Shown here one piece after another: positions 1,133-21,900 of a DNA stretch of 64,000 nt. How positions within the stretch are numbered: the first letter of the stretch is position 1; every line of letters begins with the position of its first letter. The notes below the pieces were generated by a model. The model did no database searches and was not told the DNA's origin. It was given only the letters and a program-made list of their open reading frames with translations. Source of the DNA: Pengzhenrongella sicca (GTDB lineage Bacteria > Actinomycetota > Actinomycetes > Actinomycetales > Cellulomonadaceae). The position numbers were made by a program, and so were the translations under genes. The stretch covers positions 1,302,001 to 1,366,000 of the forward strand of contig NZ_CP071868.1 of the NCBI RefSeq assembly GCF_017569225.1. The letters are read 5' to 3'.

Positions 1133-1236
1133 CTCGTCCTTTCGGGGCGCGCCGACGCGCCGCCAGTGCGGGCTACCGCAGATCCGGCCTGCATCCTACG
1201 CAGCGACCCCCGACCCGGCGCCCGGAACTGGTAGAG

Positions 1237-1914: not shown

Positions 1915-1918
1915 CGAC

Positions 1919-4838: not shown

Positions 4839-4845
4839 GCTCGGC

Positions 4846-5937: not shown

Positions 5938-6266
5938 GGGGGAGCTCCTGCGGGGACGTGGCGGGCACCGGCGAGCGCGTGGTGCGCACCGGTGGGCGTC
6001 GAGGATGACGAAGGTCGGGCGCACGTCGCACCTGCGGACTCGCCGCCCAAGTCAGGGCGGCACCGCCGGGCCAAGTCGGGGCCGGGGTCCGTGCGGTCAC
6101 CCTATCCCCGCGCCGCGACTGCCCGCGTTGCGCCTGCCGCTGCCGCCCCCGGCGAACTGGGAGTTGTGGCACGCCCGGTGGCGTGAGAGCGACCACGTCT
6201 CCCAGCTCGCCGAGTGAGATGGCGGCTTGCGCCTGACGGCCGGCGCCGGCGTGCGATGCTCGGGCG
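5938..6266. promoter_or_regulatory. Divergent intergenic region with twin-hairpin leader before the F420-0 cassette
   Basis: This 329-base gap separates the leftward transporter cassette from the rightward kinase-like gene. On the minus strand a TAGGGT -10-like hexamer lies at 6104-6099, which would give a leader of roughly 150 bases. Within it sit two adjacent hairpins: CCGCCC/GGGCGG at 6043-6048 and 6055-6060, and a similar one at 6066-6085 with a single bulge. Both loops carry the sequence AAGTC (GACTT on the transcript). No B12 box or other known riboswitch core was recognised. On the plus strand GATGCT lies six bases before the start at 6267, a leaderless-like arrangement. Confidence 0.4.
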
Positions 6267-7229: not shown

Positions 7230-7243
7230 GCCGGCGCTCCTGA

Positions 7244-7299
7244 GCCGACGCCGCTCAGCCGACGCCGCTCAGCCGACGCCGCTCAGCCGACGCCGCTCA
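7244..7299. repeat. Four perfect tandem copies of a 14-base repeat
   Basis: The unit GCCGACGCCGCTCA occurs four times head to tail at 7244-7257, 7258-7271, 7272-7285 and 7286-7299, with no mismatch. It fills the gap between two convergent genes, and the last copy contains the stop codon of the leftward gene (7297-7299). The unit length is not a multiple of three, consistent with a non-coding location. It probably arose by slippage. Confidence 0.95.
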
Positions 7300-8070
7300 G
7301 AAGAACGGCCACGGGAACGCGGGCATCGCGCCCTCGGGGCCGGGGAAGCGACCCGAGGCGAGCAGCCGGTCGCAGCGGGCGGCGAGGGCGACCAGCTCCT
7401 CCTCGCTGAGCAGCCCGGACAGGCGTCGGCCGAGGTCGCCGTCCAGGTCCGCGCGGACCCTCTCCACCCCCGCCAGCTCGCCGGGGCGCAGCGCCTCGCC
7501 CACCCATCCCCACAGGACCGTGCGCAGCTTGTGCTCCACGTGGAAGGTGACGCCGTGGTCCACCCCGTAGCGGTGGCCGTCGGGCATCGGGAGGATGTGG
7601 CCGCCCTTGCGGTCGGCGTTGTTGACGACGACGTCGAACACGGCCATCCGGCGCAGCTCGGCGGAGTCCTCGTGGATGAGGGCCACCGGTCGGTCCTGCT
7701 CGTCCCTGCCCTGAAACACGGCGCGCCAGCCGTCCGGCGGCACGGCGGCCGCCGGGACGACGTCGATCGGGTCCTGGTCGCGGTCCGGGTCCTGCCAGAG
7801 CTGCACCATGCCCGGCCCGTGCGGCCCGTCGCGCAGGCAGGTGACCGGCACGACGTTCCACCCGAGCGCCTCGGAGACCAGGTGCGCCGCCGACTCGCGG
7901 CGTGCGAGGGACCCGTCCGGGAAGTCCCACAGGGGTTGCTCGCCGGCGACCGGCTTGTAGACGACCATCAGCGGCCCGATGCGGCCGACGAACGTCGCGT
8001 TCGACGCGGTGGCGATGCGCCCGACGAGCGCGAGCTCACCGGCGGCGAGGTCGACCTCGCCGGAGGTCAC
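7297..8070 (-). CDS. SCO1521-family kinase-like protein
   Basis: A 257-residue conserved actinobacterial protein (family TIGR03843/SCO1521) with PI3/PI4-kinase or HipA-like features. VVYKP near residue 37 looks like the ATP-binding lysine strand. NNADRKGGH near residue 155 matches a catalytic loop, and YGVDHGVTF near residue 170 matches a metal-binding DxG segment. The start ATG overlaps the stop of the DUF3090 gene (ATGA), and a histidine phosphatase lies one gene further upstream. This trio is a recurrent neighbourhood in Actinobacteria. No substrate is known to me; protein or small-molecule phosphorylation is inference from the motifs. Confidence 0.85.
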   Translation of the reverse strand: MTSGEVDLAAGELALVGRIATASNATFVGRIGPLMVVYKPVAGEQPLWDFPDGSLARRESAAHLVSEALGWNVVPVTCLRDGPHGPGMVQLWQDPDRDQDPIDVVPAAAVPPDGWRAVFQGRDEQDRPVALIHEDSAELRRMAVFDVVVNNADRKGGHILPMPDGHRYGVDHGVTFHVEHKLRTVLWGWVGEALRPGELAGVERVRADLDGDLGRRLSGLLSEEELVALAARCDRLLASGRFPGPEGAMPAFPWPFF

Positions 8071-8630
8071 GACGGGTCGGGCGGGCCGCAGACGTGGCCG
8101 TCCTCATCGATCGGCTGCCCGCAGCGCGGGCACGCGGGTCGCCCCGACCGGACGACCTGCCGGGTGCGCTGGACGAAGGCCCGCGCGGTCCCCACGGGCA
8201 TCCGGACGAGCAGCACCTCGCTCGGTTCGGCGGTGTCGAGGCCAGGTGCGGATTCCTCGGGGCCCTCGTCGTCGGCGAGGTCGAGCGGGTACGCCTCGAG
8301 GACGACCTGCGCGGTCGTGGGGTCCCAGCCCAGCCGGATGGACCCGGTGCGGAACTGCTCCTCGACGGGCTGGTCCAAAGGCTCGTTGTCGACGAGCTCG
8401 GCGGGCGTCTGGGCGGGCACGCTGTAGCGGTTGCCGTCGTCGGCCATCAGCGCGTCGAGCATCTCGTCGATCTTCTCGGCGAGCAGCTGGGACTGCTGCT
8501 TCTCCAGCGCGACGCTGGCGCTTCGCGCGCCGTCGCGCACCTGCAGGTAGAAGGTGCGCGATCCGGGGCGGCCGACCGTGCCGACGACGACGCGGTCGGG
8601 CCAGGCGAACTCGTGGACGAGGGCGGGCAT
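8067..8630 (-). CDS. DUF3090 family protein with C-terminal zinc-ribbon-like motif
   Basis: A 187-residue protein of the actinobacterial DUF3090 family (TIGR03847). The start is MPALVHEFAWPDRVV with conserved GTVGRPGSRTFYLQ near residue 20. An internal run of acidic residues (DDEGPEES) precedes MPVGTARAFVQR. The C-terminus holds CPRC...HVC spaced like a small metal-binding ribbon. It is middle gene of a trio, 9 bases after the phosphatase and overlapping the kinase-like gene by 4 bases. The function is unknown; coupling suggests a shared complex or pathway. Confidence 0.88.
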   Translation of the reverse strand: MPALVHEFAWPDRVVVGTVGRPGSRTFYLQVRDGARSASVALEKQQSQLLAEKIDEMLDALMADDGNRYSVPAQTPAELVDNEPLDQPVEEQFRTGSIRLGWDPTTAQVVLEAYPLDLADDEGPEESAPGLDTAEPSEVLLVRMPVGTARAFVQRTRQVVRSGRPACPRCGQPIDEDGHVCGPPDPS

Positions 8631-8639
8631 GCACCCATT

Positions 8640-9359
8640 TTAGGAGGTGGCGCGCTCCGCGTCGTCCGGAACGGACCCGGGGCCGGCCCCGCCGCCGACC
8701 GGCGCGTCGGCGACCGGGCCGAGGGTGCGCAGCCACGACAGGTCGTGGAACTGCGTGTTCGTGGCCACGACCTCGGGTCGGCTGGTCCCGTACCGCACGA
8801 TCGAGACGGACGCGGGGCTGGCGTGCAGGCGCTGGAAGTTGTCCAGGTCCAGGCCGAGCGCGTCGGCCACGATGGCCTTGATGATGTCGCCGTGGGCGAC
8901 CGCGACCCACACGGAGCCCGCGCCGTGCTCCGCCTCGAGCGCGGCGTCGTGGCGCGCGATGGCGGCCACGGATCGCGCCTGCATCGCCGCCATCGACTCG
9001 CCGCCCGGGAACTCGGCCGCCGAAGGCCTGGTCTGGACGACCGACCACAGCGGCTCGCGCGCGAGCTCGCTCAGCGCCCGGCCCTGCCACTGCCCGTAGT
9101 CGCACTCGGTCAGGTCGGCCTCCAGCTCGATCACCGGCGGGTTCGCCTGGTGCGCCAGGATGAGCTGCGCCGTCTGCTGGCAGCGCTCGAGGGGGCTCGA
9201 CACCACGGCGACCAGCGGCACCACCGCGAGTCGACGCGCGGTCCGCGCGGACTGCTCGCGCCCGACGACGTCGAGGCTCACCCCCGCGGCCCGCCCGGCC
9301 AAGATGCCCGCGGAGTTGGCGCTGGTACGACCGTGCCGGACGAGGATGACTGTGGCCAT
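8640..9359 (-). CDS. Histidine phosphatase, MSMEG_4193 family
   Basis: A 239-residue member of the phosphoglycerate-mutase-like histidine phosphatase superfamily. The catalytic motif VRHGRTSAN gives the phospho-histidine (His9), SSPLERCQQTA supplies the second arginine, ECDYGQWQGR near residue 85 supplies the acid, and VAHGDIIKA near residue 155 the second histidine. The family is annotated as MSMEG_4193-type phosphomutase/phosphatase (TIGR03848) of unknown substrate. It leads the trio with DUF3090 and the SCO1521-like kinase; pairing a phosphatase with a kinase-like protein suggests a phosphorylation/dephosphorylation pair, which is inference. Confidence 0.88.
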   Translation of the reverse strand: MATVILVRHGRTSANSAGILAGRAAGVSLDVVGREQSARTARRLAVVPLVAVVSSPLERCQQTAQLILAHQANPPVIELEADLTECDYGQWQGRALSELAREPLWSVVQTRPSAAEFPGGESMAAMQARSVAAIARHDAALEAEHGAGSVWVAVAHGDIIKAIVADALGLDLDNFQRLHASPASVSIVRYGTSRPEVVATNTQFHDLSWLRTLGPVADAPVGGGAGPGSVPDDAERATS

Positions 9360-9387: not shown

Positions 9388-10770
9388 CTACGGGGCCGCG
9401 GCGAGGGCGAGCAGCCGCGCCACGGCGGCGACGTCGTCGCGCAGCAGGGCGACGGTGACGCGCACGTGCCCGCCCGGGCGGCCCGGCGTCGTCGGCGCGG
9501 GCTGGTCGGCCCGGGCTTGGAACGGACCTCCCGGCGCGACCCGGATCCCGGCCGCCGCGAGCCGGACCAGCGCCGTCGACTCGTCGTGCACCGGCACCCA
9601 CAGGTTGATCCCGTCGCCCGGCTGCACGCTGAGCCCGTGGCCCGCGAGCGCGACGCACAGCGCCCGCTGGCGCGCGTAGTAGGCCCGGCGGGCCTCGGCG
9701 ATCGAGTCCAGCGCCGCGCCGTCGGTGAGCAGGTCGACGAGCACGTGCTGCAGGAGCCGGCTGGTCCAGGCCGGGCCGAGCATCCGGCGCGCGACGAGCC
9801 GGTCGAGCACCGGCGCCGGGCCGCCGACGGCCGCGATGCGCAGATCGGGTCCGTGCGACTTCGAGAAGGAGCGCACGTGCACCACGCGCCCGGGCAGCCA
9901 GGTCCCCAGGCTCACCGGCCGCGCGGAGGAGATCTCGCCCGAGTGGTCGTCCTCGATCACGAGCACGTCGCGTTCGGTCCCGAGCCGGCGGACGACGGCG
10001 GCCAGCTCGCGGGCGCGCGTCGACGTGAGGCTCACCCCGGTCGGGTTGTGCGCGCGGGGCTGCAGGACGACGACGCCGGCGCCCGCCCGGAGCGCGGCGG
10101 CCAGCGCGTCCGGGCGCATGCCGTGGCGGTCGATCGGGACGGGGATCCGCTCGAGGCCGAGCTGCTCGACGAGGTCGAACACCGGCGGGAACCCGGGGTC
10201 CTCGACGGCGACGCGATCCCCGAAGCCGGCGACCTGCTCGAGCGTGCGGCCCAGCGCGTCCATCGCGCCGTCGACGACGGTGATCCGCGCGGGGACGAAC
10301 GGCCACGACGCGCGCAGCAGGGCCTCGAGGGCGGGGATCGTGGGGGAGGAGACGTACGTGTCGGTGTCGGCGGCCGGCATGCGCGCCGCGACGCGCGCGA
10401 GCGCCGGCCCGAGCGCGGGCAGCAGCGTCGGGTCCGGCGTGCCGGTCGACAGGTCCAGGCGCGGCGCGCGCGTGCGGGTCGCGCCGGGGGCCGGCTCGCC
10501 GGCGAGGTCGCGGTAGCTCGGCGGCAACCACCCGGCGGGCTCGGGCAGCACGTAGGTGCCTGCGCGGCCGCGCGAGACCACCAGCCCGACGGCGGACAGC
10601 GCCTGCCACGCGCCGCTCACCGTCGCTGGGCTCACGGCGAGCTCGGCCGCGAGCTCCCGCACCGTCGGCAGCCGGTCGCCGGGCCTGAGCTCGCCGGACC
10701 GGACCAGGCGCGCGATCGCCGCCGCGATGCCGCGCGGGCTGCGGTCCTCGACGTGCGCGGCGAGCTCCAT
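9388..10770 (-). CDS. MocR-type GntR/aminotransferase-fold regulator
   Basis: A 460-residue MocR/PdxR-type transcription factor: an N-terminal GntR winged helix (residues about 10-75, with DRLPTVRELAAELAVSPATV as the recognition region) joined to a fold-type I aminotransferase domain. The PLP lysine lies in SFSKSHGP near residue 280, and NPTGVSL and IEDDHSGE are typical cofactor-pocket motifs. I chose ATG 10770 because domain homology starts there; the open frame extends to 10896 but would run into the opposite promoter. It is divergent from the pyrimidine-degradation genes 166 bases away, so it likely controls them. MocR proteins often sense amines or PLP adducts; beta-alanine or beta-aminoisobutyrate would be plausible effectors (inference). 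Confidence 0.88.
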   Translation of the reverse strand: MELAAHVEDRSPRGIAAAIARLVRSGELRPGDRLPTVRELAAELAVSPATVSGAWQALSAVGLVVSRGRAGTYVLPEPAGWLPPSYRDLAGEPAPGATRTRAPRLDLSTGTPDPTLLPALGPALARVAARMPAADTDTYVSSPTIPALEALLRASWPFVPARITVVDGAMDALGRTLEQVAGFGDRVAVEDPGFPPVFDLVEQLGLERIPVPIDRHGMRPDALAAALRAGAGVVVLQPRAHNPTGVSLTSTRARELAAVVRRLGTERDVLVIEDDHSGEISSARPVSLGTWLPGRVVHVRSFSKSHGPDLRIAAVGGPAPVLDRLVARRMLGPAWTSRLLQHVLVDLLTDGAALDSIAEARRAYYARQRALCVALAGHGLSVQPGDGINLWVPVHDESTALVRLAAAGIRVAPGGPFQARADQPAPTTPGRPGGHVRVTVALLRDDVAAVARLLALAAAP

Positions 10771-10936
10771 CTGGTCATCGTGCGCGGTGGCGGCCCGGTT
10801 TGGGGTAGCGGGCCGGGCGTCGGCGCGCCACGCTCGGACTTGTTTACCCGCGCGACACCCTGGCCGCGTCAGGGGAAACACCACAGAAATGTTCAACCGC
10901 CAGAGTCACATTCCACACCCCAGCACCGGAGGATCC
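10771..10936. promoter_or_regulatory. Divergent regulatory region between MocR regulator and pyrimidine-degradation genes
   Basis: This 166-base region must hold promoters for both directions. It is less GC-rich near 10840-10915 (TTGTTTACCC, GGGAAACACC, GAAATGTTCAACC) than the flanking genes. Near 10790-10815 two short GGCCCGG/GGGCCGGG boxes lie close together, which could be MocR half-sites, but I cannot define an operator. A strong GGAGG ribosome site precedes the ATG at 10937. The regulator side has no clear ribosome site. Confidence 0.4.
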
Positions 10937-11785
10937 ATGACTGTCGTACGAGTCGCTCTCACGCAGGCCACGTGGACCGGTGACAAGGAGTCGATGATCG
11001 CGCTGCATGAGGGCTTCGCGCGGACCGCGGCGGCGCAGGGCGCCCAGGCGATCGCGTTCCAGGAGCTGTTCTACGGTCCGTACTTCGGCATCACGCAGGA
11101 CCCGAAGTACTACGAGTACGCGGAGTCCGTCCCCGGCCCCACGACCGACCGCTTCGCGGCGCTCGCCAAGGAGCTCGGGATGGTCATCATCTTGCCGGTG
11201 TACGAGGAGGACCAGCCCGGCGTGCTCTACAACACCGTGGCGGTGCTCGACGCCGACGGCTCCTACCTCGGCAAGTACCGCAAGCACCACATCCCGCACC
11301 TGCCCAAGTTCTGGGAGAAGTTCTACTTCCGCCCCGGCAACCTCGGCTGGCCGATCTTCGAGACCGCGATCGGCAAGGTCGGCATCACCATCTGCTATGA
11401 CCGGCACTTCCCGGAGGGTTGGCGCACGCTGGGCCTGAACGGCGCCGAGATCGTGTTCAACCCCAACGCCACGGCGCCCGGGATCTCGAACAAGCTCTGG
11501 CAGATCGAGCAGCCGGCGGCCGCGGTCGCGAACGGCTACTTCGTCGTCGCGACCAACCGCGTCGGCCTCGAGGACAACGAGTACGGCGACGAGGCGGTCA
11601 ACTTCTACGGCAGCTCGTACGTCGTCGGGCCCGACGGGGAGTTCGTCGGCGACGTCGGCTCGACGACCGAGACCCAGGTGTTCGTCCGGGACATCGACCT
11701 CGACCAGATCCGGGTCGTGCGCGAGCGCTGGCAGTTCTACCGCGATCGCCGCCCGGACGCCTACGGACCGATCGTGGCGCCATGA
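10937..11785 (+). CDS. pydC: Beta-ureidopropionase (N-carbamoyl-beta-alanine amidohydrolase)
   Basis: A 282-residue nitrilase-superfamily amidase. The catalytic triad is complete: Glu43 in FQELFYGPYF, Lys116 in KYRKHHIPH and Cys153 in TICYDRHFPE. FQELFYGPYF and the C-terminal FYRDRRPDAY are typical of beta-ureidopropionases rather than other nitrilases. It hydrolyses N-carbamoyl-beta-alanine or N-carbamoyl-beta-aminoisobutyrate to the beta-amino acid, CO2 and ammonia: step three of reductive uracil/thymine breakdown. ATG 10937 follows a GGAGG site by six bases. Its stop overlaps the dihydropyrimidinase start (ATGA), so steps two and three are translationally coupled. Identification is strong. 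Confidence 0.93.
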   Translation: MTVVRVALTQATWTGDKESMIALHEGFARTAAAQGAQAIAFQELFYGPYFGITQDPKYYEYAESVPGPTTDRFAALAKELGMVIILPVYEEDQPGVLYNTVAVLDADGSYLGKYRKHHIPHLPKFWEKFYFRPGNLGWPIFETAIGKVGITICYDRHFPEGWRTLGLNGAEIVFNPNATAPGISNKLWQIEQPAAAVANGYFVVATNRVGLEDNEYGDEAVNFYGSSYVVGPDGEFVGDVGSTTETQVFVRDIDLDQIRVVRERWQFYRDRRPDAYGPIVAP

Positions 11786-13197
11786 AGACGCTCATCACGG
11801 GCGGCACGGTCGTCAACGCGACCGGTCGCGGCGCGGCGGACGTCCTCCTGGACGGCGAGACGATCGCGGCCCTCATCGCGCCCGGGTCGACGGCGCTCGG
11901 CGTCGACCTCGCTGCGCACGTCGACCGCGTGATCGATGCGACGGGCAAGTACGTCATCCCGGGCGGCATCGACGCGCACACCCACATGGAGATGCCGTTC
12001 GGCGGCACCTTCGCGGCCGACACGTTCGAGACCGGCACGCGCGCGGCCGCGTGGGGCGGCACGACGACGATCGTCGACTTCGTGGTCCAGTACGCGGGCG
12101 AGAACCCCCTCGACCAGTACGCCGCCTGGCACGCGAAGGCGGCCGGGAACTGCGCGATCGACTACGGCTTCCACCAGATCCTGTCGGACGTCCAGGACTC
12201 GTCGCTGCACGCGATGGACGAGCTCGTCGCGGAGGGCGTGACCAGCTTCAAGCTGTTCATGGCCTACAAGGGCGTCTTTCTCTCGGACGACGGGCAGATC
12301 GTCAAGGCCATGCAGCGGGCCGCGAGCAACGGCTCGATGATCATGATGCACGCGGAGAACGGCAGCGTGATCGACCTGCTCGTGCAGCAGTCGCTCGCGC
12401 GCGGCGAGACCGACCCGATCTACCACGGCCTGACCCGGCCGTGGCAGGCGGAGGAGGAGGCCACCCACCGGGCGATCATGCTCGCGAACCTCACCGGTGC
12501 GCCGCTGTACGTCGTGCACGTGTCCGCCAAGCAGGCCGCCGAGCAGATCGCGCGGGCCCGCGACACCGGGCAGAACGTCTTCGGCGAGACGTGCCCGCAG
12601 TACCTGTACCTCTCGCTCGAGGAGCAGCTCGGCGCGCCAGGCTTCGAGGGCGCCAAGTGGGTGTGCTCGACGCCGCTGCGCTCGCGGGCCGAGCACCACC
12701 AGGACCACATGTGGCGTGCGCTGCGGACCAACGACCTCCAGGTCGTCTCGACCGACCACTGCCCGTTCTGCATGACCCAGAAGCAGCTGGGGCTCGGCGA
12801 CTTCTCGAAGATCCCCAACGGCATCGGTTCGGTCGAGCACCGGCTCGACCTGCTGTACCAGGGCGTCGTCACGGGCGAGATCAGCCTCGAGCGCTGGGTC
12901 GAGATCTGCTCGACGACGCCGGCGCGGATGTTCGGGCTGTACGGCCGCAAGGGCGTGCTCGCGCCGGGCGCCGACGCCGACGTCGTCATCTACGACCCGA
13001 ACGGGCACACCTCGATCGGGCTCGGCAAGACCCACCACATGAACATGGACTACTCGCCGTGGGAGGGCTTCGAGATCGACGGCCACGTCGACACGGTGCT
13101 CTCGCGCGGCGAGCTCCTCATCGGCGACGGCGAGTACCACGGCCGCGCCGGGCACGGCCGGTACGTCAAGCGCGAGCTGTCCCAGTACCTGATCTGA
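11782..13197 (+). CDS. hydA: Dihydropyrimidinase (D-hydantoinase)
   Basis: A 471-residue cyclic amidohydrolase that opens dihydrouracil/dihydrothymine to N-carbamoyl-beta-amino acids. All metal ligands of the binuclear zinc site are visible: His66 and His68 (DAHTHMEMPF), the carboxylated Lys157 (TSFKLFMAY), His190 (MMHAEN), His246 (VVHVSA) and Asp325 (STDHCPF). The length and the GTFAADTFETGT segment fit dihydropyrimidinase/hydantoinase rather than dihydroorotase. The stop codon lies in the first copy of a 19-base tandem repeat. The neighbouring ureidopropionase and methylmalonate-semialdehyde dehydrogenase support a true catabolic role. Confidence 0.94.
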   Translation: MKTLITGGTVVNATGRGAADVLLDGETIAALIAPGSTALGVDLAAHVDRVIDATGKYVIPGGIDAHTHMEMPFGGTFAADTFETGTRAAAWGGTTTIVDFVVQYAGENPLDQYAAWHAKAAGNCAIDYGFHQILSDVQDSSLHAMDELVAEGVTSFKLFMAYKGVFLSDDGQIVKAMQRAASNGSMIMMHAENGSVIDLLVQQSLARGETDPIYHGLTRPWQAEEEATHRAIMLANLTGAPLYVVHVSAKQAAEQIARARDTGQNVFGETCPQYLYLSLEEQLGAPGFEGAKWVCSTPLRSRAEHHQDHMWRALRTNDLQVVSTDHCPFCMTQKQLGLGDFSKIPNGIGSVEHRLDLLYQGVVTGEISLERWVEICSTTPARMFGLYGRKGVLAPGADADVVIYDPNGHTSIGLGKTHHMNMDYSPWEGFEIDGHVDTVLSRGELLIGDGEYHGRAGHGRYVKRELSQYLI

Positions 13198-13222
13198 GTT
13201 TCGGTACCTGACCTGAGTTTCG
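13185..13222. repeat. Two tandem 19-base units covering the hydA stop codon
   Basis: GTACCTGATCTGAGTTTCG at 13185-13203 is followed directly by GTACCTGACCTGAGTTTCG at 13204-13222, one mismatch apart. The first copy holds the hydA stop (13195-13197). It looks like a recent small duplication that lengthened the gap to the next gene. Confidence 0.9.
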
Positions 13223-13246
13223 CCGCACCGATCTAAGGAGCTCAGC

Positions 13247-14278
13247 ATGGAGTTCGGAGTCGTCCTCCAGACGAACCCCCCGGCCGCCCGCACGATCGAG
13301 CTCGCGCGGCAGGCGGAGACTCACGGCTTCGACTACGTGTGGACCTTCGACTCGCACCTGCTGTGGCAGGAGCCGTTCGTGATCTACTCGGCGATCCTCG
13401 CGGCCACCCGCAAGGTCATGGTCGGGCCGATGGTCACCAACCCGGCCACCCGGGACTGGACCGTCACGGCGTCGCTGTTCGCGACCCTCAACGAGATGTA
13501 CGGCAACCGGACGGTGTGCGGCATCGGCCGCGGCGACTCGGCGGTGCGCACCCTCAACGGGCGCCCGTCGAACCTCGCCACGCTCCGCGAGGCGATCCAC
13601 GTCATCCGCGAGCTCGCGAACGACCGCTCGGTCGAGGTGAACGACCGGACGCTGCGGTTCCCCTGGAGCAAGGGGTCCGCGCTCGAGGTGTGGGTCGCCG
13701 CCTACGGCCCGCTCGCGCTCAAGCTCACCGGGGAGGTGGGGGACGGGTTCATCCTGCAGCTCGCCGACCCCGACATCGCCGAGTGGACCATCAAGGTGGT
13801 CCGCGACGCGGCCGAGAAGGCCGGCCGGGACCCGGCCGCGGTGAAGTTCTGCGTCGCCGCGCCGATGTACGTCGGCGACGGGCAGTCGCCCGCCGAGCGC
13901 GCGCACATGCGCGAGCAGTGCCGGTGGTTCGGCGGCATGGTCGGCAACCACGTCGCCGACATCGTCACGAAGTACGGCGCCGGCTCGACGATCCCGACGG
14001 CCTTGACGGACTACATCGCGGGGCGCCAGGGGTACGACTACAACGAGCACGGCCGGGCCGGGAACACGCACGCGTCCTTCGTCCCCGACGAGATCGTCGA
14101 GCGCTTCTGCCTGCTCGGCAGCCCCGCCGAGCACGTCGAGAAGCTCACGGCGCTGCGCGAGCTCGGCGTGACCCAGTTCGCGGGCTACCTCCAGCACGAC
14201 AACAAGGAGCAGACGCTGCGGATGTACGGCGAGCGGGTCATCCCGGCGATGGCCGAGACGGTCGTGGCCACCATATGA
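13247..14278 (+). CDS. LLM-class F420/flavin-dependent oxidoreductase (TIGR03842-like)
   Basis: A 343-residue luciferase-like TIM barrel. MEFGVVLQTNPPA, FDYVWTFDSHLLWQEP, VMVGPMVTNPATRDW and GIGRGDSA match the LLM family, specifically the CPS_4452-type clade (TIGR03842) that is often called F420-dependent. This clade call is from recognition, not a search. The start follows CTAAGGAGCTC. The stop overlaps the first permease gene (ATATGA), so it belongs to the operon. The cluster has dihydropyrimidinase and later enzymes but no dihydropyrimidine dehydrogenase. The simplest inference is that this enzyme reduces uracil/thymine (with F420H2 or reduced flavin), or otherwise prepares the pyrimidine. 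A RutA-like monooxygenase role is less consistent with the downstream enzymes. Confidence 0.88.
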   Translation: MEFGVVLQTNPPAARTIELARQAETHGFDYVWTFDSHLLWQEPFVIYSAILAATRKVMVGPMVTNPATRDWTVTASLFATLNEMYGNRTVCGIGRGDSAVRTLNGRPSNLATLREAIHVIRELANDRSVEVNDRTLRFPWSKGSALEVWVAAYGPLALKLTGEVGDGFILQLADPDIAEWTIKVVRDAAEKAGRDPAAVKFCVAAPMYVGDGQSPAERAHMREQCRWFGGMVGNHVADIVTKYGAGSTIPTALTDYIAGRQGYDYNEHGRAGNTHASFVPDEIVERFCLLGSPAEHVEKLTALRELGVTQFAGYLQHDNKEQTLRMYGERVIPAMAETVVATI

Positions 14279-15137
14279 GGCTCGCCCGCCGGGTCGGGGT
14301 CGGGCTGCTCGCGGTCGTGCTCGCGTGCGCGCTGTGGGAGCTCTACAAGCTGGTCGGCCCCGACGCCGGCGGGCACGTGCTGGGCGCGAGCGTCCTGCCG
14401 CGCGCCGAGGACCGGGCGATGCCCCACGTGTGGGACGTCGTCGGGCGCATGCTCGAGCCGGAGAGCTCGGCCGCCGGCTCGCCGTCCGTCGCGGTGGCGA
14501 TGCTCTCCGCGTGCTGGTTCACGCTGCGCGTCGCGCTGGCTGGCTGGCTCGCCGGCGTCGTCGCGGGCTTCGGCCTCGCCGTCGCGATGCAGCGCTCGCG
14601 CCTGACCGAGGCGGCCGTCTTCCCGTGGGTCGTGCTCAGCCAGACGGTGCCGCTGATCGCGCTCGCCCCGCTCGTGGTCGGCTGGGGCGGCAAGATCCAG
14701 ATCGGCTCGTTCTCGTGGGAGCGGCCGATGTCCGTCGCGCTGATCGCGTCCTACCTCGCGTTCTTCCCGGTGGCGGTCGGGGCGCTGCGCGGGCTGCAGT
14801 CGCCCGACGCCGCGCACGTCGAGCTGTTCCGCGCGCAGGCGGCGAGCTGGTGGCACACCTTCCGGTTCCTGCGGCTGCCCGCGAGCGTGCCGTACCTGCT
14901 GCCCGCGCTGCGCCTGGGTGCCGCGACCGCCGTCGTCGGCGCGATCGTCGCGGAGGTGTCCACCGGCACCAAGGGCGGCATCGGTCGCCTGATCATCGCG
15001 TACGCCCAGGCCGCGAGCGGCGACCCCGCCAAGCCCTGGGCGGCGATCGTCGGCGCCGCGCTGCTCGGCCTCGTCGCCGCCGGCCTCGTCTCCCTGCTCG
15101 GGCTCGGCCTGGGCCGCTACCGCCACACGGAGGTCTC

Positions 15138-15141
<4 letters not shown>
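14275..15141 (+). CDS. ABC transporter permease (first of two), pyrimidine-type substrate
   Basis: A 288-residue SsuC/TauC-like inner-membrane permease with about six or seven hydrophobic segments and the EAA-type loop region LFRAQAASWWHTFRFLRLPASVPYLLPAL (centre AASWWHTFRFLRLPAS). The ATG at 14275 overlaps the stop of the oxidoreductase. It differs clearly from the second permease (15983), so the transporter core is probably a heterodimer. The unusual insert GGKIQIGSFSWERP near residue 140 lies between membrane helices. The substrate is inferred from the operon: uracil, thymine or a dihydro- or carbamoyl derivative. Confidence 0.85.
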
Positions 15142-15982
<841 letters not shown>

Positions 15983-15986
<4 letters not shown>

Positions 15987-16750
15987 GGGGGGTCACCGGG
16001 GCGCTGCGGCAGTGGGCGCCGCCGCTCCTGCTCGGCCTGCTCGGCCTGCTGGCGTGGCAGGCGCTCGTCGTCGGCGCCGACCTCAAGCCGTACCTGCTGC
16101 CCGCCCCGACCGCGATCGGCGAGCAGCTCGTGCTCGTCGCGCCCCTCGTGTGGACGGCCGGCCTCGCGACCGGCGCGAACGTGCTCGTCGGCATCGCGCT
16201 CGGCACGATCGTCGCGATCGTGGCCGCCGTGGCGGCGGCCCGCAGCTCGTTCGTGGACGAGCTGATGTCGCCGACGGCCGCAGCGGTGTCCGTGATGCCG
16301 ATCGTCGCGCTCGCGCCCGCGCTCAACACCATGTTCGGGACGACGTCGACGACGCCGCGGCGGCTGATCGTCGCCGTGGTGGTGTTCGCGCCGGTGTTCG
16401 TCAACACGCTCCGCGGGCTGCGCCAGGTCCAGCCCGTGCACCGTGACCTCATGCGGGCGTACGCGGCGACCGCCGGCCAGCTCACGCGCCTGGTGACGAT
16501 CCCCGGCGCGCTGCCGTTCCTGTTCACGGGCCTGCGGATCGCGTCGTCGACGGCCGTGATCGCGGCGATCGTGGCGGAGTACTTCGGCGGGCTCCAGAAC
16601 GGGCTCGGCTCGCGCATCACCTCGGCCGCGGCCAACAGCGCGTACGGGCGCGCGTGGGCGTTCGTGCTCGGCGCGATCGTGCTCGGCCTGATCTTCTACC
16701 TCGCAACGCTTGCGCTCGAGCGCGCCGTCGCCCGCCGCCACGGCCGCTGA
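15983..16750 (+). CDS. ABC transporter permease (second of two)
   Basis: A 255-residue permease of the same superfamily as the first, with about six membrane helices and the coupling loop LMRAYAATAGQLTRLVTIPGALPFLFTGL (core AATAGQLTRLVTIPGALP). APTAIGEQLV near residue 40 and GRAWAFVLGAIVLG near the end are typical. A DxxTSTTP insertion near residue 110 (MFGTTSTTPRRL) is unusual. It overlaps the ATPase by four bases and is followed 111 bases later by the receptor lipoprotein. Confidence 0.87.
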
Positions 16751-16861
16751 GCCGCCGGCTCGGACCCGCCGGCTCGGGCCCGCCCCCACCTGTCCACCTG
16801 CCACCGCTGCCAGGTCGGCTCTCCACAGCACCTCCCGCACCTACCGAGAAGAGGGAACACG

Positions 16862-18025
16862 ATGAGGGATATCAGGAGGACCGCGCGCGGCGCGGCGGTC
16901 GTCGCCGTCGGGGCGGCGCTCGCGCTCACCGGGTGCAGCAGCAGCGATGACGCGGACGAGCCGGCGGCGAGCTCCGGGTCGGCGGCGGGCGAGCTGACGC
17001 CCGTCACGCTCCAGCTGCAGTGGTTCACCCAGGCGCAGTTCGCCGGCTATTACGCGGCGCTCGACCAGGGGTACTTCGAGGACGAGGGCCTCGACGTCGA
17101 GATCATCGAGGGCGGCGTCGACATCGTGCCGCAGTCCGTCCTCGCCGACGGCTCGGTCGACTTCGCGATCGCCTGGGTGCCGAAGGCGCTTGCCTCGCGC
17201 GAGCAGGGCGCGGGCATCACCGACGTCGCCCAGATCTTCCAGCGGTCCGGGACGCTGCAGGTCTCGTTCAAGGACAAGGCCATCACGACGGCCGCGGACC
17301 TCGAGGGCAAGAAGGTCGGCAACTGGGGCTTCGGCAACGAGTTCGAGCTCTTCGCGGGCATCACCGAGGCCGGGCTCGACCCCGCGACGGACGTGACCCT
17401 CGTGCAGCAGCAGTTCGACATGAACGCGCTGCTGTCGGGCGAGATCGACGCCGCCCAGGCAATGACGTACAACGAGTACGCGCAGGTGCTCGAGGCGGAG
17501 AACCCGGCGACGGGGGAGCTGTACACGGCCGACGACTTCAACGCCATCGACTGGAACGACGAGGGCACCGCGATGCTCCAGGACGCCGTCTGGGCCAACA
17601 CCGAGCGGCTCGCGTCCGATGCGGACTACGAGGCGACGACCGTCAAGTTCCTCGCGGCGAGCCTCAAGGGCTGGATCTACGCGCGGGACAACCCGGAGGC
17701 GGCGCGCGACGCCGTCGTCGCCGCGGGCTCGCAGCTCGGCAACAGCCACCAGCTGTGGCAGACGAACGAGGTCAACAAGCTGATCTGGCCGTCCGCCGAC
17801 GGCATCGGCCTGATCGACGCGGCCGCCTGGGACCAGACCGTCGACATCGCGCTGAACACCAAGAACGACCAGGGCGCGACGGTCATCACGGCGGCGCCGA
17901 GCGACGACGCCTACACCAACGAGTACGTGCAGCAGGCGCTCGACCAGCTCACCGAGGAGGGCCTCGACGTGACCGGCGAGTCGTTCGCCCCGATCGAGGT
18001 CACCCTGGAGCCGGGCGGCAGCTGA
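16862..18025 (+). CDS. NMT1/THI5-like substrate-binding lipoprotein
   Basis: A 387-residue extracytoplasmic receptor. Basic start, hydrophobic core and lipobox LTGC (near residue 24) followed by a Ser/Asp-rich linker mark a lipoprotein. The fold signature VTLQLQWFTQAQFAGYYAA (near residues 48-66) is that of the NMT1/THI5-like family, which binds pyrimidines such as formylaminopyrimidine and related compounds. DVEIIEGG, AIAWVPKALA and NWGFGNEFE are further family motifs. A clear GAAGAGGGAA ribosome site precedes ATG 16862. With the two permeases and ATPase it completes an importer, probably for a pyrimidine base. Confidence 0.9.
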   Translation: MRDIRRTARGAAVVAVGAALALTGCSSSDDADEPAASSGSAAGELTPVTLQLQWFTQAQFAGYYAALDQGYFEDEGLDVEIIEGGVDIVPQSVLADGSVDFAIAWVPKALASREQGAGITDVAQIFQRSGTLQVSFKDKAITTAADLEGKKVGNWGFGNEFELFAGITEAGLDPATDVTLVQQQFDMNALLSGEIDAAQAMTYNEYAQVLEAENPATGELYTADDFNAIDWNDEGTAMLQDAVWANTERLASDADYEATTVKFLAASLKGWIYARDNPEAARDAVVAAGSQLGNSHQLWQTNEVNKLIWPSADGIGLIDAAAWDQTVDIALNTKNDQGATVITAAPSDDAYTNEYVQQALDQLTEEGLDVTGESFAPIEVTLEPGGS

Positions 18026-18054
18026 CCGCCCGCCCGCTGTCCGCGGCGTCCGCG

Positions 18055-18080
18055 CCCGGTGGTGCCTCGGCGCCACCGGG
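18055..18080 (+). terminator. Hairpin after the binding-protein gene
   Basis: CCCGGTGGTGCC (18055-18066) pairs with GGCGCCACCGGG (18069-18080) with one G-U pair; the innermost bases open to form the loop. There is no U-tract. It lies 30 bases after the receptor stop and may reduce read-through into the aminotransferase gene. Confidence 0.6.
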
Positions 18081-18138
18081 TCTGGACGCGGCGGGGTCGT
18101 GACTGTTCTGTTCGGGGAGTTCTGAGAGGGTGGCAGGC

Positions 18139-19521
18139 ATGACGCAGCTGAGTGACGAGAACCGGTTGGACGACGCGGGCACGGCGGGCACGGCGGGCAC
18201 GAAGGGCCCGGCAAGCGCGGACGGGGCCCTGGCGCACGCGCTGGACCGGGCGCACGTGTTCCACTCCTGGTCGGCCCAGGCGGCGCTCGACCCGATCGCG
18301 ATCGCGGGCGGGCTCGGGTCCCTCGTGTGGGACTTCGACGGCACCTCCTACCTGGACTTCGCCAGCCAGCTCGTCAACGTCAACATCGGGCACCGGCACC
18401 CGCGCGTGGTCGCGGCCATCCAGGCGCAGGCCGACGTGCTGCCGACGGTGGCCCCGGCGAACGCGAACCTCACGCGCGGCCAGGCGGCCAGCGCGATCGT
18501 CGGGCACGCCCCGGCCGGCATGAGCAAGGTGTTCTTCACCAACGGCGGCGCGGACGCCAACGAGAACGCGATCCGGCTCGCGCGGCTGCACACCGGTCGC
18601 GACAAGATCCTCTCGGCCTACCGCTCGTACCACGGCAACACCGGGGCGGCCGTCGTCGCGACAGGCGACTGGCGCCGCATCCCGAACGAGTTCGCGCGCG
18701 GGCACGTGCACTTCTTCGGGCCGTACCTGTACCGCTCCGAGTTCTGGGCCGCGAGCCCCGAGCAGGAGACCGAGCGCGCGCTGCGCCACCTCGAGCACGT
18801 GCTCCAGGCCGAGGGGCCGCAGTCCGTCGCGGCGATCCTGCTCGAGACCGTCGTGGGCACCGCCGGCGTCCTCGTCCCGCCGCCCGGGTACCTGCCCGGC
18901 GTGCGCGCGCTCGCGGACCGGTACGGCGTGCTGCTCATCCTCGACGAGGTGATGGCCGGGTTCGGCCGCACGGGCGCGTGGTTCGCGTTCGACCACTTCG
19001 ACGTGACGCCCGACCTCATCACGTTCGCGAAGGGCGTCAACTCCGGCTACGTGCCGGTCGGCGGCGTCATCATCGCCGACCCGATCGCGGCGACCTTCGA
19101 CCACCGCGTCTTCCCCGGCGGCCTGACCTACTCGGGGCACCCGCTCGCGATGGCCTCGATCGTCGCGACCCTCGACGCGATGGCGACCGAGGGGATCGTG
19201 GCCAACGCCGCCCGGATCGGCGCCGACCTGCTCGCGCCCGGCCTCGCGGACCTCGCGGCGCGGCACCGGTCGATCGGCGAGGTCCGGGGGCTCGGGGTGT
19301 TCTGGGCGCTCGAGCTCGTGACCGACCGCGCCACCCGCGAGCCCGTGCCCGCCGCGTTCATGGGCGCGCTCAAGGCCGAGCTCATGCGGCGACACCTGCT
19401 GCCGTTCCTCGCCGAGAACCGGATCCACGTCGTGCCGCCTTGCGTCGTCACGGACGACGAGGTCGCGCGCGCCCTGGCGATCTACGACGAGGCGCTCACG
19501 GTCGCCGAGGCGACGCTATGA
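18139..19521 (+). CDS. Class III (omega) aminotransferase, probable beta-alanine/beta-aminoisobutyrate:pyruvate transaminase
   Basis: A 460-residue PLP enzyme. The cofactor lysine is Lys298 in TFAKGVNSGYVP; ILDEVMAGFGRTG (near 268-280) and TNGGADANENAIRLAR (near 134-149) are class III hallmarks. In this operon it would convert beta-alanine and beta-aminoisobutyrate to malonic and methylmalonic semialdehyde. The start is ATG 18139 with GAGAGG upstream; GTG 18130 is possible. The N-terminus holds a GTAGTAGTKG stretch from a 9-base DNA repeat. The stop overlaps the SDR start (ATGA). Family is certain, exact amine is inferred from context. Confidence 0.9.
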   Translation: MTQLSDENRLDDAGTAGTAGTKGPASADGALAHALDRAHVFHSWSAQAALDPIAIAGGLGSLVWDFDGTSYLDFASQLVNVNIGHRHPRVVAAIQAQADVLPTVAPANANLTRGQAASAIVGHAPAGMSKVFFTNGGADANENAIRLARLHTGRDKILSAYRSYHGNTGAAVVATGDWRRIPNEFARGHVHFFGPYLYRSEFWAASPEQETERALRHLEHVLQAEGPQSVAAILLETVVGTAGVLVPPPGYLPGVRALADRYGVLLILDEVMAGFGRTGAWFAFDHFDVTPDLITFAKGVNSGYVPVGGVIIADPIAATFDHRVFPGGLTYSGHPLAMASIVATLDAMATEGIVANAARIGADLLAPGLADLAARHRSIGEVRGLGVFWALELVTDRATREPVPAAFMGALKAELMRRHLLPFLAENRIHVVPPCVVTDDEVARALAIYDEALTVAEATL

Positions 19522-20288
19522 CGGCTGCCGTCGAGGCCACCACGCCGGCGCTGCGCGCGGTGGTGACGGGGGCGTCATCGGGCATCGGCGCCGCGACGGT
19601 GCGCTGGCTGCGCGCGGCGGGCTGGGACGTCGTCGCCGTCGCCCGCCGCGCCGACCGGCTGGCCGCGCTGGCCGCCGAGACCGGCGCCGTCGCGGTGGTC
19701 GCCGACGTGACGTCCGACGACGACGTCGCGCGCCTGGCCGCGCAGGTCACCGCCGGCGGCCCGGTGCACGCCCTCGTGAACATCGCGGGCGGCGCGCGCG
19801 GGACCCAGTCGGTCGCGGCGGCGTCGATCGCCGACTGGCAGGCGATGTTCGAGGTCAACGTGCTCGGCACGCTGCGCGTGACGACGGCGCTGCTGCCCGC
19901 GCTGACCGCGTCGGGCCGCGGCGACGTCGTCGTGCTCACCTCGACGGCGGCGCTCGACACCTACCCGGGCGGCGGCGGGTACGTCGCGGCCAAGCACGCC
20001 GAGCGGGCGATCGCGACGACGCTGCGGCTCGAGCTGATCGGCCAGCCCGTGCGCGTGATCGAGATCGCGCCCGGCATGGTGCAGACCGAGGAGTTCTCGC
20101 TGAACCGCTTCGGCGGCGACGCGGCCCGGGCGGCGGCCGTCTACGCGGGCGTCGACGCGCCGCTCACGGCGGCCGACGTCGCGGACACGATCGGCTGGAC
20201 CCTGACCCGACCGCACCACGTGAACGTCGACCTGCTCGTGCTCCGACCGCGCGCGCAGGTCTCGAACACCCAGGTGGCACGGGCCTGA
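19518..20288 (+). CDS. Short-chain dehydrogenase/reductase, YdfG-like (semialdehyde or 3-hydroxyacid)
   Basis: A 256-residue classical SDR. The nucleotide-binding loop TGASSGIG is at residues 17-24, NIAGGA near 88, and the catalytic set Ser142, Tyr155, Lys159 (STAALDTYP then YVAAKH) is complete. RVIEIAPGMVQTEEF resembles YdfG/RutE-associated 3-hydroxypropionate dehydrogenases, which reduce malonic semialdehyde with NADPH. Coupled to the aminotransferase by a 4-base overlap, it offers a reductive outlet for the toxic semialdehyde beside the oxidative MmsA route. The substrate is inferred. Confidence 0.88.
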   Translation: MTAAVEATTPALRAVVTGASSGIGAATVRWLRAAGWDVVAVARRADRLAALAAETGAVAVVADVTSDDDVARLAAQVTAGGPVHALVNIAGGARGTQSVAAASIADWQAMFEVNVLGTLRVTTALLPALTASGRGDVVVLTSTAALDTYPGGGGYVAAKHAERAIATTLRLELIGQPVRVIEIAPGMVQTEEFSLNRFGGDAARAAAVYAGVDAPLTAADVADTIGWTLTRPHHVNVDLLVLRPRAQVSNTQVARA

Positions 20289-20340
20289 CCCCCTCCCCAC
20301 CGACTCCCGAACATCCCGAACCACCCGAAAGGCGCGAGCG

Positions 20341-21900
20341 ATGAGCACGTCGATCTCCACGACCGAGCCCACGACCACGGCCGGCGCCGGGCCGGCCCCG
20401 ATCCCGCACTGGATCGCAGGCGCGGCCGTCTACGCCGGTGCTGGTGACCCGACCGCGCCCGTGACGGACCCGGCGACCGGCCGGGTCTCGGGCGCGGTCC
20501 CGCTCGGCGAGTCCGCGGAGGTCGCCGCCGCCGTCGCCGCCGCAGCCGCGGCCTTCCCCGCGTGGCGCGACACGGCGCTGAGCCGCCGCGTCCAGGTGCT
20601 CTTCGCGTTCCGCGAGCTGCTCAACGCGCGCAAGGGCGAGCTCGCGGCGATCCTCACCGCCGAGCACGGCAAGGTGCTCGCCGACGCGATGGGCGAGGTC
20701 AGCCGCGGCCAGGAGGTCGTCGAGTTCGCGTGCGGCATCCCGCACCTGCTCAAGGGCGGGTACACCGAGAACGCCTCGACGAAGGTCGACGTGTACTCGA
20801 TCCGGCAGCCGCTTGGCGTCGTCGGGATCATCAGCCCGTTCAACTTCCCGGCGATGGTGCCCATGTGGTTCTTCCCGATCGCGATCGCGGCGGGCAACAC
20901 CGTCGTGCTCAAGCCCAGCGAGAAAGACCCGTCGGCGGCCGTCTGGATCGCCGCGCTGTGGCGCGAGGCGGGCCTGCCCGACGGCGTCTTCAACGTCGTG
21001 CACGGGGCCAAGGCGGCCGTCGATGCGCTGCTCGAGCACCCGGACGTCGCCTCGATCTCGTTCGTCGGCTCGACCCCGATCGCGCAGTACGTCTACGAGC
21101 AGGGCACCGCGGCGGGCAAGCGTGTGCAGGCGCTCGGCGGCGCGAAGAACCACATGCTCGTGCTGCCCGACGCCGACCTCGACCTGGCCGCCGACGCCGC
21201 GGTCAACGCGGGCTTCGGGTCGGCGGGGGAGCGCTGCATGGCGGTGTCCGCGCTGGTCGTGGTCGAGCCGGTCGCGGACGAGCTGATCGCGAAGATCACC
21301 GCGCGGATGGCGGGCCTGCGCACGGGCGACGGCGCGCTGCTGCGCGACGGCGTCGGCGCCGACATGGGGCCGCTCATCACCCGCGCGCACTGCGACAAGG
21401 TCGCCGCCTTCGTCGCCGCGGGCGAGGCGGAGGGCGCCGACCTCGTCGTCGACGGGCGCCCGATCGTGGCGGACGGTGACGCGGACGGGTTCTGGCTCGG
21501 CCCGACGCTGTTCGACCGCGTCACGCCGGCGATGTCGATCTACACCGAAGAGATCTTCGGCCCGGTGCTCTCGGTCGTGCGGGTGGATTCCTACGACGAC
21601 GGCCTCGAGCTCATCAACGCCAGCCCGTACGGCAACGGCACCGCGATCTTCACCAACGACGGCGGCGCCGCGCGGCGCTTCCAGAACGAGGTGCAGGTCG
21701 GGATGGTCGGCATCAACGTGCCGGTGCCGGTGCCGATGGCGTACTACTCGTTCGGCGGCTGGAAGACGTCGCTCTTCGGCGACTCGCACGCGCACGGCGC
21801 GGAGGGGCTGCACTTCTTCACGCGCGGCAAGGTCGTGACCTCCCGCTGGCTCGACCCGAGCCACGGCGGCATCAACCTCGGCTTCCCCCAGAACAGCTGA
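20341..21900 (+). CDS. mmsA: CoA-acylating methylmalonate-semialdehyde dehydrogenase
   Basis: A 519-residue aldehyde dehydrogenase of the MmsA clade: GGAKNHMLVLPDAD (near residues 266-279) replaces the usual ALDH motif, and the nucleophile is Cys299 in GERCMAVS. FNFPAMVPMWFFP and FGGWKTSLFGDSHAHG are characteristic. It converts malonic or methylmalonic semialdehyde with CoA and NAD to acetyl-CoA or propionyl-CoA with CO2 loss, so it ends the uracil/thymine route in central metabolism. ATG 20341 follows GAAAGGCGCG. It is the last gene of the catabolic block. Confidence 0.94.
   Translation: MSTSISTTEPTTTAGAGPAPIPHWIAGAAVYAGAGDPTAPVTDPATGRVSGAVPLGESAEVAAAVAAAAAAFPAWRDTALSRRVQVLFAFRELLNARKGELAAILTAEHGKVLADAMGEVSRGQEVVEFACGIPHLLKGGYTENASTKVDVYSIRQPLGVVGIISPFNFPAMVPMWFFPIAIAAGNTVVLKPSEKDPSAAVWIAALWREAGLPDGVFNVVHGAKAAVDALLEHPDVASISFVGSTPIAQYVYEQGTAAGKRVQALGGAKNHMLVLPDADLDLAADAAVNAGFGSAGERCMAVSALVVVEPVADELIAKITARMAGLRTGDGALLRDGVGADMGPLITRAHCDKVAAFVAAGEAEGADLVVDGRPIVADGDADGFWLGPTLFDRVTPAMSIYTEEIFGPVLSVVRVDSYDDGLELINASPYGNGTAIFTNDGGAARRFQNEVQVGMVGINVPVPVPMAYYSFGGWKTSLFGDSHAHGAEGLHFFTRGKVVTSRWLDPSHGGINLGFPQNS

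Follow-up and report, generated by a model that had tools for sequence, protein, structure and literature searches.

A luciferase-like oxidoreductase predicted to replace dihydropyrimidine dehydrogenase in an actinobacterial pyrimidine-degradation operon

The genome of Pengzhenrongella sicca, a single contig of 4.395 Mb (NZ_CP071868.1), encodes an operon for the reductive degradation of pyrimidines in which an oxidoreductase of the luciferase-like monooxygenase (LLM) class is predicted to stand in for the usual first enzyme. We analyzed the operon within a window of 64,000 nucleotides (positions 1302001-1366000 of the contig, numbered here from its first base). Genes were called from profile matches judged against the curated NCBIfam cut-offs together with Pfam domains, and starts, such as those of the dihydropyrimidinase (11782), the first permease (14275) and the aminotransferase (18139), were read from the bases. 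The operon lies on the forward strand and begins with a CN_hydrolase protein (10937-11785; PF00795, 228 bits), a predicted beta-ureidopropionase in the pydC role, for which the top NCBIfam model is N-carbamoylputrescine amidase at 250 bits, under the cut-off of 410. An ATGA overlap joins it to a gene for dihydropyrimidinase (hydA/pydB; 11782-13197); the product scores 557.5 bits against TIGR02033 (cut-off 393.25) and contains the dihydropyrimidinase motifs HTH, SFKLFMAYK, HAENG, STDHC and NGIG. The LLM gene follows (13247-14278; TIGR03842, 589 bits against a cut-off of 295.45), its product being the predicted F420H2-dependent uracil/thymine reductase.

Downstream are the components of an ATP-binding cassette (ABC) transporter, a predicted pyrimidine importer: a first permease (14275-15141; PF00528), an ATPase identified by profile matches (15138-15986), a second permease (15983-16750; PF00528) and an NMT1/THI5-type substrate-binding protein (16862-18025; PF09084, 131 bits). 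A class-III aminotransferase (18139-19521; PRK06062, 735.8 bits against 472) is predicted to be a beta-alanine/3-aminoisobutyrate transaminase, this substrate being a prediction, as the matched model bears the name “hypothetical protein,” and the operon closes with MmsA, a CoA-acylating (methyl)malonate-semialdehyde dehydrogenase (20341-21900; TIGR01722, 678.6 bits against 448.5). The profile and domain matches place all of the genes named in the initial annotation where it had them, and its statement that the LLM gene is tied to the transporter by overlap is borne out by an ATGA shared with the first permease.

The breakdown of uracil and thymine is a central nitrogen-salvage route, usually initiated by PydA/PreAT, a complex flavin/iron-sulfur enzyme that corresponds in bacteria to the one by which humans eliminate 5-fluorouracil. 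With the reductive pathway as known (PydA/PreAT, PydB, PydC, PydD) the operon shares a dihydropyrimidinase, a beta-ureidopropionase-type hydrolase, a class-III aminotransferase and a semialdehyde dehydrogenase; it differs in having no PydA/PreA: we assign the first step to an LLM protein that is not homologous to that enzyme but resembles Mer, and predict F420H2 to be its donor. The textbook first enzyme could not be found although the second is clear: a profile search of the whole genome gave no PreA over the cut-off, and the one protein with the DHO_dh domain PF01180 is a quinone-type PyrD. The absence of PydA/PreA claimed by the initial annotation therefore extends to the entire genome at the thresholds used, and the same PF01180 and PreA searches returned no dihydropyrimidine dehydrogenase encoded elsewhere that might act with the operon. 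The LLM protein itself belongs to PF00296 and has neither the DHO_dh domain nor the ferredoxin domain of PydA/PreA.

We extended the search to 99 related genomes and to 296 genomes sampled across the phylum, counting a protein as present where its score exceeded the curated cut-off. PreA was found in none of the 99 relatives and in two of the 296 phylum-wide genomes. In one of these two, G302, a PreA of 690.6 bits is encoded near a dihydropyrimidinase (L245, 7345-11212) and there is no TIGR03842 protein over the cut-off, making it the sole such genome of the 296.

One further redox enzyme is encoded in the P. sicca operon, which corrects the earlier view of the LLM protein as the only one: a YdfG-like short-chain dehydrogenase/reductase (SDR; 19518-20288; 142.8 bits, below the model cut-off of 411) lies between the aminotransferase and MmsA. 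We considered and rejected it as the pyrimidine reductase, since it occurs at 17 of 33 related LLM loci (by a score threshold of our own for neighboring genes) and since YdfG-like SDRs act on carbonyl or hydroxy groups. Possibly it forms a side branch, as a malonic-semialdehyde reductase leading to 3-hydroxypropionate.

The LLM protein and dihydropyrimidinase are distributed together. Among the 99 relatives the LLM protein is present in 33 and dihydropyrimidinase in 34: 33 genomes have both, none has the LLM protein alone, one has the hydrolase alone and 65 have neither (Fisher's exact test, 1.7e-25). In the single exception (G073) the dihydropyrimidinase match ends 3 bases from the end of a contig, beyond which the LLM gene could lie. 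Thirteen genera include both LLM-positive and LLM-negative species, and in twelve of them the hydrolase is split in exactly the same way, the thirteenth being the genus of the exception. At the scale of the phylum, 62 of the 296 genomes have the LLM protein, 87 the hydrolase and 59 both, so that the hydrolase accompanies the LLM protein in 59 of 62 genomes and is found in 28 of the 234 that are LLM-negative (Fisher's exact test, 1.4e-36).

The two genes are also physically linked. A dihydropyrimidinase lies at the LLM locus in all 33 relatives and at all 80 named loci, which are actinobacterial by their titles and represent the top 80 of 586 confirmed matches. In the phylum-wide sample the hydA start is at most 16 kb from the LLM gene in 48 of the 62 LLM genomes; in the other 14 the two are on different contigs (nine genomes), the hydrolase is not found over its cut-off (three) or they share a contig at distances of 51 kb and 3.4 Mb (two). 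We fetched 19 LLM stretches from this sample (20 with the PreA locus described above), applying bit-score thresholds of our own to the neighboring genes: in six of the 19 a Zn-hydrolase is encoded but no nitrilase, and in six an ABC ATPase is missing and an NCS1 carrier is present. The LLM protein and dihydropyrimidinase stay together while other steps are exchanged for non-homologous proteins, which is better explained by functional coupling of the two than by inheritance of gene order alone. Upstream of the P. sicca operon, and divergent from it, is a GntR/MocR-type regulator (9388-10896, reverse strand; PF00392 and PF00155), and such a regulator adjoins 18 of the 33 loci in relatives and 50 of the 80 named loci.

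Two further arrangements were observed. One relative (G014) has two separate LLM-dihydropyrimidinase loci (stretches L035 and L052), one with an ABC importer and the other with MmsA and the aminotransferase upstream; no ABC importer was found in the stretch of this second locus. In genomes with no TIGR03842 protein over the cut-off, distant LLM proteins (24-31% identity) are encoded in one stretch with members of the dihydropyrimidinase family (L252, 11632-12510, and also L253-L256); that of L252 is closer to the Mer models, and a relationship of these proteins to the yanthine reductases discussed below, themselves predicted, is conceivable. Among viral contigs no relative was found.

The window also encodes a set of F420 genes (1234-5940), which went unreported in the initial annotation. 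CofC, the guanylyltransferase of F420 biosynthesis (1234-1914, forward strand; TIGR03552, 148.6 bits against 105), is followed on the reverse strand by CofD, which attaches the phosphoester side chain to FO (1919-2905; TIGR01819, 346 bits against 257.45), and by a putative importer of F420-0 (or FO) consisting of an ATPase (2926-3768; TIGR03873, 375.6 bits against 372.4), a permease (3756-4838; TIGR03869, 520.6 bits against 437.35) and a binding protein (4846-5940, with an open frame to 6024; TIGR03868, 473 bits against 392.4). CofE is encoded 34.8 kb upstream of the LLM gene, outside the window. The likeness to the F420-0 importer defined by these three families is that all subunits exceed the curated cut-offs and adjoin CofD; the difference is that the importer is found here with CofC and CofD but without a match to FO synthase, as CofH (TIGR03551) had no match in this genome and CofG (TIGR03550) had none in the seven genomes searched, this one included. 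With CofC and CofD present and FO synthase unmatched, FO rather than F420-0 is suggested as the cargo. Between these genes and the operon (6267-9359) lie an APH(6)-like kinase, which scores too low for the NCBIfam resistance models, and the trio SCO1664, DUF3090 and MSMEG_4193, families to which no function is assigned.

CofE is present in all 33 LLM-positive relatives; 31 exceed the cut-off of 180.65 bits, and the remaining two score 159.4 (G077) and 172.7 (G093). All 33 also have CofD or the importer. In 19 of the 33 at least one of cofE, cofD and the importer lies within 20 kb of the LLM gene, and F420 genes are found in the flanks of 48 of the 80 named loci (36 of the 54 loci with a length of 20 kb or more) and in 15 of the 33 stretches from relatives. 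Absence is joint in two genera: G048 lacks the LLM protein, dihydropyrimidinase, CofD, CofE and importer over the cut-offs, and its congeners G008 and G032 have the LLM protein, dihydropyrimidinase, importer and CofE; G068 lacks the same five, and its congener G086 has them, with the importer at 390 bits, just under the cut-off of 437. Among the 62 relatives with CofD, taking an E value below 1e-70 (our own threshold) as the presence of CofH, the importer permease is over its cut-off in 31 of the 40 without a strong CofH match, compared with six of the 22 with one. This distribution suggests, indirectly, that FO, the substrate of CofD, may be imported. The F420 genes of the window, in a genome with no match to FO synthase, suggest scavenging from other microbes (see also L293, L294 and L295), of FO where CofD is present and of F420-0 in the CofD-less genomes. 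Eleven LLM matches were counted in the P. sicca genome, that of the operon included, and no F420-reducing dehydrogenase was found over the cut-off among three of the others that were scanned.

The strongest case for a link to F420 comes from outside the phylum. As the 80 named loci are actinobacterial by their titles, Proteobacteria were reached through plasmids only: ten from Leisingera, one from Paracoccus, a remnant in Caballeronia and a sister protein in Variovorax (two further plasmid matches are actinobacterial, one in Streptomyces, where a stretch of 25 kb is free of F420 genes, and one in Rhodococcus at 32.7% identity). On the three Leisingera plasmids that were read, of the ten, the genes cofG-cofH-cofD-cofC-cofE-npdG-LLM stand head to head with genes of the pyrimidine pathway: dihydropyrimidinase, a Zn-hydrolase, an aminotransferase, a transhydrogenase and, in two of the three, an NCS1 carrier annotated as a nucleobase:cation symporter; the third stretch stops inside the dihydropyrimidinase gene. 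An electron path can be read from this order, from NADH to NADPH through the transhydrogenase, on to F420 through NpdG and, as we infer for the last step, to the pyrimidine through the LLM protein. In Paracoccus alcaliphilus, cofGHDCE-npdG-LLM is followed by an ABC importer. The Caballeronia sp. SBC2 plasmid (L284, 14001-17991) has an LLM remnant that covers 38% of the query and is 75% identical to its Leisingera counterpart. Genes for a Zn-hydrolase, alanine dehydrogenase and a transhydrogenase subunit lie nearby, and the whole looks like a decayed cluster of the Leisingera type in a betaproteobacterium.

The protein itself points the same way. The LLM protein spans positions 1-329 of the 329 in TIGR03842, the CPS_4043 family, which NCBIfam types as a hypothetical equivalog and names LLM class F420-dependent oxidoreductase. 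An AlphaFold2 model was obtained with a predicted local distance difference test (pLDDT) score of 85.8 and a predicted TM-score (pTM) of 0.88, and a Foldseek search with it placed Mer in the first eight positions (E 2.9e-22, TM 0.80, 22-29% identity), followed by F420-dependent alcohol and glucose-6-phosphate dehydrogenases; the first flavin mononucleotide (FMN) monooxygenase came at rank 29. Profile comparison likewise gave a full-length match to Mer with a score of 161.7 bits, as against 22.7-43.8 bits for the FMN-type relatives. Genomic and structural evidence together support the prediction that F420 is the cofactor.

Although related to Mer, the protein is not itself a Mer: it scores 135.3 and 133.1 bits against Mer cut-offs of 276 and 348.7, and Glu6 of Mer aligns with V6, the position being V or C throughout TIGR03842. 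It shares with Mer the VTNP loop, the position of Asp96 (here D97, invariant in the 46 rows of two alignments, both of which include the P. sicca protein) and a carboxamide (Q171, invariant in TIGR03842) that matches the one at Mer position 178; residue 178 of jMer is N in the chain and Gln178 in the paper, and we use only the shared carboxamide. In the Mer paper, the contact of Asp96 with the pyrimidine ring of the pterin comes from a modeled ternary complex, and the residues that the paper labels as positions B to D are reported to differ in behavior among the three enzymes compared. With D97 and Q171 invariant and Glu6 replaced, the LLM protein appears to have kept the position that holds the ring, which is the expectation for a related enzyme whose substrate is a small pyrimidine. 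It differs from Mer also in two segments, W227-F228 to N234-H235 and Y263-D264-Y265 with H268 and N273, in which the residues named are invariant in the aligned TIGR03842 sequences; these are the first candidates for contacts with uracil.

Given the absence of PreA over the cut-off, the co-occurrence and the linkage, the replacement of dihydropyrimidine dehydrogenase by the LLM protein, as put forward by the initial annotation, is the explanation that best accounts for the comparative data, and we consider it very probable that the protein encoded at 13247-14278 is a dihydropyrimidine dehydrogenase that depends on F420H2 and has no relation to PydA/PreA. The operon would then be a reductive pyrimidine pathway with a predicted new type of enzyme at its first step, outside PydA/PreA, Mer and RutA. 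The pyrimidine would be taken up by the ABC importer, and uracil or thymine, bound within a Mer-like TIM barrel, would accept a hydride from F420H2 at C6 to give dihydrouracil or dihydrothymine. For the steps from ring opening to acyl-CoA, assignments follow from established knowledge of the families: dihydropyrimidinase would open the ring, the nitrilase-type beta-ureidopropionase would form beta-alanine or 3-aminoisobutyrate with release of CO2 and NH3, the aminotransferase would convert this product to the semialdehyde, and MmsA would yield acetyl- or propionyl-CoA. The genome being without a match to FO synthase, we propose that a precursor of the cofactor is imported, and CofC, CofD and CofE would complete F420 from the FO or F420-0 brought in by the dedicated importer.

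Several observations weigh against this assignment. It is a prediction, in which the substrate, direction and cofactor are all deduced from comparative data. The Fisher tests treat genomes as independent, with no correction for shared ancestry, and the 48 of 80 loci with F420 genes are those of the closest relatives, in which gene order is partly inherited. At phylum scale F420 clustering does not separate LLM-positive from LLM-negative loci, an F420 gene being found, at score thresholds of our own, in none of the 19 LLM stretches and in one of the 29 stretches taken around the hydrolase in genomes that are LLM-negative, a count that concerns the loci only. F420 genes are moreover common without the LLM protein: of the 66 LLM-negative relatives, 33 have CofD and 52 have CofE. 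Of the 87 hydrolase-positive genomes of the phylum, 28 have no LLM protein, and PreA over the cut-off accounts for only one of them (G302); the hydrolases of these 28 are mostly 33-46% identical to that of P. sicca. Conversely, in three LLM genomes, with assemblies of 220 to 350 contigs, no hydrolase exceeds the cut-off, and the 31-kb stretch that holds the Paracoccus cluster does not contain a dihydropyrimidinase. Mer is a distant relative, at the 22-29% identity given above, and residues 37-39 of the model have pLDDT values below 50. Finally, with neither CofG nor CofH matched in P. sicca and CofD missing from four of the 33 LLM-positive relatives (G001, G008, G032, G040), the supply of F420 depends on an importer with only a predicted cargo. 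We first took the missing FO synthase and the CofD-less genomes as evidence against F420; on the hypothesis of salvage they are consistent with it, as all four have the importer and CofE, both 6-9 kb from the LLM gene in three of them and CofE 3.6 kb away in the fourth.

An unlikely alternative, though the best placed of those considered, is that the LLM protein reduces some other unsaturated cyclic ureide or amide, which dihydropyrimidinase then opens, in an F420-dependent cyclic-amide pathway. TIGR02033 enzymes also accept hydantoins, and NCS1 carriers also take up hydantoin or allantoin. The sister LLM protein on the plasmid of Variovorax sp. PBL-E5 (L286, 7414-17973; 202.7 bits to TIGR03842, below the cut-off) is encoded with a hydrolase of the hydantoinase/allantoinase type, a nitrilase, a GTP-binding protein, npdG, RidA and cofGHDCE; this cluster probably serves another F420-driven cyclic-amide pathway, so that such an arrangement of genes may be used for several substrates. 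A luciferase-family F420 enzyme has also been proposed for yanthine in Chloroflexota (PMC12507026). For the TIGR03842 loci, however, MmsA and a class-III aminotransferase after a beta-ureidopropionase-type enzyme are what uracil and thymine need, and the NCS1 carrier that occurs in six of the 19 phylum LLM stretches is of the kind annotated as a nucleobase:cation symporter in Leisingera.

It is very improbable that the LLM protein is instead a flavin (FMNH2) enzyme, be it a uracil reductase or a RutA-like monooxygenase. RutA is an enzyme of the LLM fold that attacks uracil, and both the missing match to FO synthase in P. sicca and the lack of F420 genes in the 19 phylum stretches would fit such an enzyme. 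Yet the RutA model (TIGR03612) is absent from the 24 families matched by the protein at E 0.001, the FMN-type relatives score far below Mer in the profile comparison, full F420 biosynthesis and npdG lie beside the LLM gene in Leisingera and Paracoccus, and the product of a RutA-like monooxygenase would have no need of the dihydropyrimidinase encoded in the operon. The initial annotation had left the donor as F420H2 or reduced flavin; the F420 genes of the same window, the cof-npdG clusters on the proteobacterial plasmids and the closeness to Mer favor F420H2 over reduced flavin. We give hardly any weight to a third alternative, in which external dihydropyrimidines (for example from tRNA dihydrouridine) are used and the LLM protein performs an unrelated F420 reaction, lying nearby by chance or through shared regulation: dihydrouracil does occur free in nature and the 27 hydrolase-positive genomes with neither the LLM protein nor PreA would suit it, but it is opposed by the near-perfect co-occurrence in relatives, the strong association across the phylum, the linkage kept despite exchanged steps and the PreA near dihydropyrimidinase in the LLM-negative G302.

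Our literature search, which left most subscription papers outside its reach, found, among the papers listed, no description of an F420-dependent pyrimidine reductase or of TIGR03842. In the parts accessible to us, PMC6279831 and PMC12305651 contain nothing on F420-dependent pyrimidine reduction, a 2021 review of F420 names no role in pyrimidine catabolism, and dihydropyrimidine dehydrogenases are treated as one family of PydA variants with NADPH, NADH or ferredoxin as the donor (PMC7332683). The nearest printed idea is the yanthine reductase proposed in 2025 for the anaerobic uric-acid pathway of Chloroflexota (PMC12507026): there too a luciferase-family F420 enzyme replaces a reductase of the flavin type alongside cyclic amidohydrolases, whereas its substrate is purine-derived, the pathway is anaerobic, the family is given as PF00296 only, and neither uracil nor TIGR03842 is named in the accessible text.

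Returning to the F420H2-dependent dihydropyrimidine dehydrogenase as the preferred reading, a broader proposition, in which we place somewhat more belief than doubt, is that in aerobic Actinomycetota and some Proteobacteria the chief dihydropyrimidine dehydrogenase is TIGR03842, F420H2-dependent and unrelated to PydA/PreA; that pyrimidine catabolism is a main reason for keeping F420, many of these organisms, Pengzhenrongella included, depending on scavenged FO or F420-0; and that the sister LLM proteins encoded beside other cyclic amidohydrolases make up a wider class of F420-driven ring-reducing pathways. If the preferred reading is true, it would fill a missing step of the pathway, whose genes have not all been identified in an actinobacterium according to a study of nitrogen limitation in M. 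smegmatis (PMC4617892), and the rare cofactor F420 would have a well-defined task in many aerobic bacteria. The toolbox of F420 biocatalysis would gain a simple uracil reductase, predicted to be free of iron-sulfur clusters, and the reading bears on whether soil bacteria share precursors of F420, which would then be supplied as a public good.

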